A stretch of 32,787 bases of DNA from Candidatus Aciduliprofundum sp. GTDB taxonomy: Archaea; Thermoplasmatota; Thermoplasmata; Thermoplasmatales; Aciduliprofundaceae. Both the position numbers and the translations under genes were made by a program. The DNA is taken from positions 1-32,787 of the forward strand of contig WAPW01000067.1 of NCBI GenBank assembly GCA_015520565.1, given 5' to 3'. The notes below the pieces were generated by a model, which saw only the letters and a program-made list of their open reading frames with translations, ran no database searches and was not told the origin of the DNA. Positions 24,987-27,606 of the stretch are shown piece after piece (position 1 is the first letter of the stretch; the number at the start of each line of letters is the position of its first letter).

Positions 24987-26189
24987 TTACATCTCTTCTT
25001 TTATTGCATTTGCCAATCTCTTAACTCCCTCTTGTATTTCCTCTATAGAAGGATATGTAAAGTTCAATCTCAGTGTATTCTTATGGTCTCTATATGGGAA
25101 GAAAGCGGCACCAATGACAAATGCAACCTTGTTCTTTATAGCCGTTTCAAACAACTTCTGTGCGTCCATACTCTCAGGCAAAGTCACCCATAGGAACATT
25201 CCACCATTTGGCTTGGTCCATCTTACACCATCGGGGAAATAATCTTCAAGAGCATCAAGCATAGCATCTCTCTTCTCTTTGTAAAGCTTTATTATCTTTG
25301 GTATGTGCTCATCAAAGTATCCACCTTTTATGTACTCTTGTGCCACATACTGCAAAAATGGGCTAGTGCATAAATCAACACCCTGCTTTGCTAAAACTGC
25401 CTTTTGAATTATATCCTTGTGAGCCACCATATAAGCAATTCTCATTCCCGGGCTCAGAGTTTTTGAAAATGTTCCAAGATAAATAACTCTTTCATCCTTA
25501 TCCATTCTCTTTATCTGAGGCACTGGCTTTCCTGAGAAGCGTAACTCTTCATAGGGACCATCTTCCATTATTAACAAATCATACTCCTCGGCAAGCTCAA
25601 GAAGATACTTTCTCCTATCTTCAGACATAGTAACTCCTGCAGGATTCTGGAAAGTTGGTATGGTGTATATTAACTTTGGCTTTATACCTTTATTTTTTAA
25701 TTCTTTGAGCTTATCTTCTAGCATATCAACAATCATTCCATTATCGTCCATCTCAATCTGCTCATATCTTGGATTGTAAGATTGAAACGCTGTTAGAACC
25801 CCAACATAGGTAGGTGCTTCTACGATAACAGTATCTCCTGGATCTATGAAAATTTTAGCTGCAAGGTATAGACCCTGCTGAGAGCCAGTTATAACTAAAA
25901 TATTATCCCTTTCAATATTTTGAAAATTGTAGCGTGAGTTTAGGAAATCTGCAAGTGTATATCTAAATGTATTCACTCCTTCAGTAGAGCCATATTGAAG
26001 CATTTTATCTCCGTACCTATCCATCATATAAGAGACAATATTCTTTATCAAATCTATTGGAAATGCCTGCGGACTTGGAAGACCTCCAGCAAATGATATT
26101 ATATCTGGCTCTTGGGTAACTTTGAGCAACTCTCTAATCTCCGATGCTTTTAAATGCTTTGCAATTTCCGAAAATTCTTCATCCCACAT
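24987..26189 (-). CDS. Class I/II PLP-dependent aminotransferase
   Basis: A 400-residue fold-type I aminotransferase. The PLP lysine is Lys243 in GTFSKTLSPGMR; other active-site residues are Asn182 (PTFQNPAG) and Asp210-Tyr213 (EDGPYEE), with ISFAGGLPSPQAFP near the start. These fit the subgroup with aromatic, 2-aminoadipate and MocR-type aminotransferases; the substrate is not decided by sequence. The ATG follows GGTGATC, a good SD site. It is divergent from glnA, with a palindrome in between, so it is probably a glutamate-dependent step coordinated with nitrogen supply (inference). Its stop is 2 bases from the M42 gene, convergent. Confidence 0.9.
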   Translation of the reverse strand: MWDEEFSEIAKHLKASEIRELLKVTQEPDIISFAGGLPSPQAFPIDLIKNIVSYMMDRYGDKMLQYGSTEGVNTFRYTLADFLNSRYNFQNIERDNILVITGSQQGLYLAAKIFIDPGDTVIVEAPTYVGVLTAFQSYNPRYEQIEMDDNGMIVDMLEDKLKELKNKGIKPKLIYTIPTFQNPAGVTMSEDRRKYLLELAEEYDLLIMEDGPYEELRFSGKPVPQIKRMDKDERVIYLGTFSKTLSPGMRIAYMVAHKDIIQKAVLAKQGVDLCTSPFLQYVAQEYIKGGYFDEHIPKIIKLYKEKRDAMLDALEDYFPDGVRWTKPNGGMFLWVTLPESMDAQKLFETAIKNKVAFVIGAAFFPYRDHKNTLRLNFTYPSIEEIQEGVKRLANAIKEEM

Positions 26190-26292
26190 TTTTGATCACC
26201 AAGGGGGGTAATGCCAGCCCTTAATATTAAGTTTATTCTGTTACCAAAGTTGGTAAAGAAAAAGTTTAAATTTTCAAGAAACATTGGTTTCT
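26190..26292. promoter_or_regulatory. Divergent aminotransferase / glnA promoter region
   Basis: Two TATA boxes face outward: on the plus strand GTTTAAA (26264-26270), 22 bases before the glnA ATG at 26293; on the minus strand AACTTAATATT (about 26223-26233), leading to a short leader with GGTGATC before the aminotransferase ATG. A perfect 16-base palindrome lies between the two boxes, about 8 bases from each. Nothing else is in this region. Confidence 0.7.
26241..26256. promoter_or_regulatory. Perfect palindrome, probable operator shared by glnA and the aminotransferase
   Basis: TTACCAAAGTTGGTAA is a perfect inverted repeat (TTACCAA-AG-TTGGTAA). It sits just upstream of both TATA/BRE elements of the divergent promoters, at nearly equal distance from each. 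This suits one homodimeric regulator acting on both genes. The half-site does not look like the methanogen NrpR site GGAA-N6-TTCC; an Lrp/AsnC-family regulator is one possibility. Confidence 0.65.
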
Positions 26293-27606
26293 ATGCAGGA
26301 AGAAATTTTGAAAAAGGTGAGAGAGAAAGGAGTGAAATACATACATCTGCAATTTATGGACATCCTTGGGCAAGTGAAGAGTGTAATGATTCCTAATATA
26401 ATGCTAGAGAAAGCATTAAGCGAGGGTATAATTTTTGATGGCTCTAGTATCGCTGGCTATGCAACTATTGACGAAAGTGATATGCGTGCGGTTCCAGATG
26501 CAAATACTTTTCAAATAATGCCAGATGACCCCAAAACAGCCACAATAATATGCGATACCTACCTTCCAAATGGAAAAAGGTTTGAAGGAGACCCAAGGTA
26601 TGTTCTTCAAAGAGTTCTAAAGAAGGCAGAAGATAAAGGATTTAGATTCGTCACCGGCCCAGAGTTTGAATTCTTCCTATTTAAGATGAAAGATGGAAAA
26701 CCAACCTTGGAGCCAAACGACTATGGTGGATACTTTGATTTTGGACCCGTGGATAAGGGTGAGGAGGTACGCAAAGAAATAATAGGGATATTCACGGATA
26801 TGGATTATAAGCCTGAGGCAACTCACCACGAGGTAGCTCCTGGCCAGCACGAAATAGATTTACGCTATGGCTATGCTTTAACGATTGCAGATAGAATTTT
26901 AACCCTAAAAGCGATGATTAAGAGAGTTGCTTTGAAATATGGGTTGTACGCCACATTTATGCCTAAACCAATATTCGGTATAAATGGCACGGGTATGCAT
27001 GTGCATCAGAGCCTCCTATCTCTTGATTTTGAGAACAACAAATTTTACGACCCGAAGGGGAGATGGCAGTTAAGTGAGATTGCACTGTATTACATAGGAG
27101 GGTTATTGAAGCATGCCGATGAAACAACTGCCATTTTGAATTCTTGGGTAAATTCTTACAAAAGATTAGTACCTGGATATGAAGCTCCTGTTTATATCTC
27201 TTGGGCAAATCTGAATAGAAGTGCATTGATTAGGGTACCTGCTGGAAGGGGGATAAAAACGAGAATTGAGCTGAGAAATCCTGATCCTGCTGGAAATCCA
27301 TATTTGCAATTTGCGGTTATGCTCGCCGCTGGATTAGATGGAATTGAGAGAAAAATTGAACCTCCAGAGCCCATAGAAGAGAACATATATGCAATGAGCC
27401 CACAGGAAAGGATAAAGAAAGGTATTAAATCCTTGCCTGAGAGTTTAGGTGAGGCATTACATCATCTTAGCAGGAGTGAATTTATGAAAGATGTTCTTGG
27501 AGAGCACATATTCAACCATTTTCTCTATGTAAAGCGTAAAGAATGGGAAGATTACAGGGCTCAAGTAACGCAGTGGGAGATTGAAAATCTCTTACCCATC
27601 TTATAA
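26293..27606 (+). CDS. glnA: Glutamine synthetase, type I
   Basis: A 437-residue glutamine synthetase, making glutamine from glutamate, ammonia and ATP. Family signatures are present: FDGSSIAGY (about 48-56), GPEFEFFLF (122-130, metal-binding glutamates), HHEVAPGQHEID, KPIFGINGTGMHVHQS, the glutamate-flap region, and NRSALIRVPAG followed by ELRNPDPAGNPYL. The ATG at 26293 lies about 25 bases after the TTTAAA box, fitting a leaderless start; a TTG at 26284 would add three residues. It is divergent from an aminotransferase with a shared palindromic operator. No GlnB-type gene is nearby. Confidence 0.97.
   Translation: MQEEILKKVREKGVKYIHLQFMDILGQVKSVMIPNIMLEKALSEGIIFDGSSIAGYATIDESDMRAVPDANTFQIMPDDPKTATIICDTYLPNGKRFEGDPRYVLQRVLKKAEDKGFRFVTGPEFEFFLFKMKDGKPTLEPNDYGGYFDFGPVDKGEEVRKEIIGIFTDMDYKPEATHHEVAPGQHEIDLRYGYALTIADRILTLKAMIKRVALKYGLYATFMPKPIFGINGTGMHVHQSLLSLDFENNKFYDPKGRWQLSEIALYYIGGLLKHADETTAILNSWVNSYKRLVPGYEAPVYISWANLNRSALIRVPAGRGIKTRIELRNPDPAGNPYLQFAVMLAAGLDGIERKIEPPEPIEENIYAMSPQERIKKGIKSLPESLGEALHHLSRSEFMKDVLGEHIFNHFLYVKRKEWEDYRAQVTQWEIENLLPIL

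Follow-up and report, generated by a model that had tools for sequence, protein, structure and literature searches.

A conserved operator-like palindrome in the divergent glnA/aminotransferase promoter of Aciduliprofundum recurs at the promoter of DNA polymerase D

The window, by which we mean the whole stretch of DNA analyzed (32,787 nucleotides of a contig from Candidatus Aciduliprofundum, a deep-sea, heat-loving archaeon whose nearest public genomes are Aciduliprofundum/DHVE2 MAGs), carries a minus-strand gene for a class I aminotransferase (24987..26189; annotated as PH0207-like, of the multiple substrate/2-aminoadipate type) divergent from glnA, which encodes a type I glutamine synthetase (26293..27606, plus strand, ATG at 26293; TIGR00653 above cut-off). 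The 103-bp intergenic region between the two genes houses a perfect 16-mer palindrome, TTACCAAAGTTGGTAA, at 26241-26256, in which 7-bp arms flank AG (TTACCAA-AG-TTGGTAA; not assigned to either strand), and a check of the window found both the sequence and the coordinates of the preliminary description to be exact. An 8-nt spacer, AGAAAAAG (26257..26264, plus strand), overlaps the BRE expected from its position and separates the palindrome from the glnA TATA box, TTTAAATT (26265..26272, plus strand). The TTTAAA that begins at 26265 lies 22 nt from the ATG, and the glnA mRNA is therefore probably leaderless. On the other side, sequence and alignment place a TATA-like box for the aminotransferase, TTAATATTAA (26221..26230, minus strand; ATATTAA as read on the plus strand), whose end lies 10 nt before the palindrome; the aminotransferase also has a Shine–Dalgarno sequence, GGTGATC (26194..26200, minus strand), which is mostly kept in the alignment of relatives. 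Both TATA boxes had been described as about 8 bases from the palindrome, a distance that is right for glnA and becomes 10 nt on the aminotransferase side. Rfam gave no match for an RNA element, and this reading of the site was rejected.

Symmetry alone was weak evidence for function because perfect 7-2-7 palindromes occur in the window at the expected rate (four seen versus 4.1 expected); the probability of one in the 103-bp intergenic region is ∼0.009, or 0.05 when loops of 0-6 nt are allowed. Conservation was strong evidence. All four Aciduliprofundum genomes have an identical core, TTACCA-N4-TGGTAA (12/12 positions), at this divergent promoter, while the four central bases vary within the genus (AAGT, AAAT, AATC). 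Between the most distant pair, the window's genome and G002, all 12 core positions are identical versus 59 of 87 other intergenic positions. In every genome of the genus, 8 nt separate the operator from the glnA TATA box, and the gap to the TATA-like box on the aminotransferase side is 10, 10, 20, and 19 nt in the four genomes. Each of these genomes contains one copy of the exact 12-base core, always at the glnA/aminotransferase promoter. These comparisons confirm the palindrome as a real conserved, operator-like dyad. Upstream of glnA in G001 (L097), the left half-site is duplicated beside the palindrome (10 bp, ATTACCAAAT), and this duplication lengthens the aminotransferase side only, by one helical turn.

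Outside the genus, two genomes of the sister genus g3 (G015 and G013) keep the glnA-proximal half, TGGTAA (TTTGGTAA or ATTTGGTAA), with the 8-nt gap and a degenerate left half; the glnA site is lost in the third g3 genome, and none was seen at the glnA promoter in g2, g4, or g5. At glnA, the site is confined to one genus, with half-sites in two genomes of its sister.

In the window's genome, the one-mismatch match located in a promoter lies between nadE (NAD synthase, short ammonia-type) and polC, which encodes the DNA polymerase D large subunit. The polC promoter carries an exact TTAYCA-N4-TGRTAA in all nine genomes of three genera (g1, g3, and g5), and G016 and G007 have two-mismatch matches at the same position. 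We had considered nadE as the second target and demoted it: the site persists at polC in G002, G013, G014, and G017, in which nadE lies elsewhere or was not found adjacent, and nadE has a site solely when it faces polC, being without one wherever the two genes are not neighbors. In other families, 27 polC promoters gave best matches with 3-5 mismatches, apart from one single-mismatch match near a start codon; judged from these promoters, the polC site is absent outside the family. The same motif therefore recurs at orthologous promoters across genera, at polC in 9/9 genomes of three genera and at glnA in 4/4 genomes of one genus plus the half-sites, and, by this comparison, polC is the other genus-wide conserved target besides glnA. 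Across all glnA and polC sites, 10 of the 16 positions do not vary, and the polC site of G015 has an exact glnA-type core (TTACCAGAGCTGGTAA). This identity of motif suggests that one protein would bind both promoters.

Across the 18 genomes of the family, a search for exact relaxed sites returned 44 forward matches versus five for the reversed control, and many of these sites fall in promoters. When one mismatch was allowed, two of the four genomes scanned gave matches close to background, and we drew no regulon from these scans for that reason. Sites inside ORFs (L198, L199, L202, L214, and L215) were set aside as a repeat of the same coding stretch and not operators. A TTATCA-N4-TGATAA variant separates a response regulator from a divergently oriented radical-SAM gene in G000 (L200), G006 (L216), and G010 (L217); since it occurs at this gene pair in two genera, the same or a related regulator probably has another conserved site here. 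At L219, L220, L207, L223, L210, L201, and L008, the same variant precedes a TTTAAA-type TATA box by ∼7-16 nt; these loci come from several family genomes and belong to KaiC-like, PAS, response-regulator, and unknown genes, and the arrangement looks like a promoter class. A literature search for the motif found no paper describing it in archaea.

We consider it rather likely that the palindrome is the operator of a putative homodimeric, bacterial-type regulator kept in Aciduliprofundum and its near relatives, one that would probably act next to the BRE as an activator of glnA and the aminotransferase, would also act at polC, and would have a very small regulon. In this reading, what was observed is that the motif is conserved, that its position is fixed, and that a second target exists. 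A dimer would bind TTAYCA-N4-TGRTAA at the upstream border of the BRE/TATA element and, most likely, help to recruit TBP/TFB as an activator of glnA, while on the other side the same dimer would activate the aminotransferase. The same regulator would also occupy the polC promoter, together with that of the divergent nadE in some species, and it would tune a very small set of growth-linked genes and not a nitrogen regulon. The earlier proposal that one dimeric regulator controls both divergent genes remains plausible, and it is weakened on the aminotransferase side by the sister genus, which keeps only the glnA-proximal half.

Known archaeal activators of the Lrp/AsnC family provide the closest parallel. 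Ptr2, LysM, and Ss-LrpB bind as dimers at a constrained distance of a few bp upstream from the BRE and contact TBP (PMC2995911); like the arrangement described here, they combine a BRE-adjacent dimer site with tight spacing and targets in amino-acid and central metabolism (PMC2995911). Unlike them, our regulator is a putative protein known from its site, and DNA polymerase D is not described as a target in the literature examined. The consensus sites of Ss-LrpB and Ptr2 differ in sequence from the palindrome. Our site adjoins the expected BRE at a fixed spacing (8-nt gap in 4/4 genomes), as Lrp-type sites do, and this position would suit an Lrp protein that binds the site and activates.

Position alone cannot distinguish an activator from a repressor, and a repressor that uses the same operator to block TFB/TBP at both divergent promoters is the strongest of the alternatives, although we think it unlikely. 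The window's site lies 8-10 nt from both TATA boxes, and a bound dimer could hinder contact with the BRE; the site overlaps neither a TATA box nor a start site, however, and polC operators are 9-10 nt from the TATA box in two genomes and 21 nt from it in most, the latter distance being too great for a simple steric block. When these gaps are compared with those of glnA (8 nt) and the aminotransferase (10 or 19-20 nt), they fall into two groups, around 9 and around 20 nt, which differ by about one helical turn (p ∼ 0.002, in a post hoc test of seven spacings that leaves out the 33-nt gap of G017, where the start is uncertain). Spacing conserved by about one helical turn favors protein–protein contact; the nadE gaps, at 15-18 nt, fit it poorly.

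The regulator is perhaps one of four Lrp/AsnC proteins, and both its identity and its ligand are putative. Profile matches identified six AsnC_trans_reg proteins in the window's genome, of which four are full-length with an HTH domain, two of these being closely similar to P. furiosus LrpA. No convincing promoter site was present at the AsnC-domain loci read in this genome, and we rejected an autoregulated Lrp gene on these grounds; across the genus, no transcription-factor gene was found with a convincing copy of the site. The existence of several Lrp paralogues also leaves some room, which we judge to be small, for two paralogous regulators, one for glnA (TTACCA...TGGTAA) and another for polC and the TTATCA-N4-TGATAA sites near the response-regulator and KaiC-like genes. 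Such a division would account for glnA sites that always have CC/GG while polC sites vary, and for the further group of intergenic TTATCA...TGATAA sites; the ten positions common to all glnA and polC sites and the glnA-type core at polC in G015 (TTACCAGAGCTGGTAA) count against it, and we retain one regulator for both promoters.

The preliminary description had also proposed that the palindrome might define a nitrogen regulon different from that of NrpR. The difference from NrpR was borne out. In M. maripaludis, NrpR operators (GGAAN6TTCC) lie upstream of nif, glnK-amtB, and glnA (PMC2723118); the dyad upstream of glnA is shared with this regulon, whereas the operator is not GGAA-N6-TTCC (PMC2723118), the NrpR domain PF01995 was found in 0/18 family genomes (with positive controls in M. 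jannaschii and M. acetivorans), and the amt upstream regions lack the motif. The nitrogen regulon itself was not upheld. When amt promoters were examined directly, they had no such site, and the second conserved target is polC; the genome-wide search that had been suggested recognized no amt, glnB, or glutamate synthase promoter among the sites read. Because amt lacks the site, NrpR is absent, and no other nitrogen-assimilation gene was recognized among the exact sites, the regulon is unlike one for nitrogen assimilation. A nitrogen-sensing regulator that controls ammonia assimilation through the palindrome is accordingly doubtful, less probable than either of the preceding alternatives. In its favor, glnA, the aminotransferase, and nadE all handle amino nitrogen, and Sa-Lrp binds glnA control regions of Sulfolobus acidocaldarius and responds to glutamine (PMC3584215). 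Sa-Lrp is thus similar in having glnA as a target, and it differs in binding gdhA and gltB as well and in belonging to a different phylum. Against it, the polC site remains where nadE is elsewhere, and in two genomes the amt promoters have a different tandem palindrome in place of the site.

This amt palindrome, TTGAACACTTGTTCAA (L231 and L236), is present as a tandem pair in G000 and as a similar pair in G001, and a related pair lies upstream of amt in G003 (L229); it is a candidate operator for ammonium uptake. A match upstream of amt in G002, TTATCACAGGTGATAA, was rejected, as it includes a Shine–Dalgarno sequence 3 nt before the ATG.

Finally, that the palindrome is a product of chance without function is very improbable. 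In its favor, such palindromes occur in the window at the expected rate; against it stand the conservation of the core, its constant spacing, its uniqueness within each genome, and a second target at orthologous promoters, and conservation by itself already contradicts it.

The papers searched contained nothing on how transcription is controlled in this archaeal family or on regulation of the DNA polymerase D promoter. A bolder and rather unlikely extension is that one regulator in this family couples glutamine or nitrogen status to DNA replication capacity, with glutamine synthetase and the replicative DNA polymerase D under a common operator. With its defined 16-bp site, a small regulon of glutamine synthetase and this polymerase offers a direct handle on the regulator protein, and it would reveal how glnA expression is set in a thermophile without NrpR and whether that setting is tied to replication.
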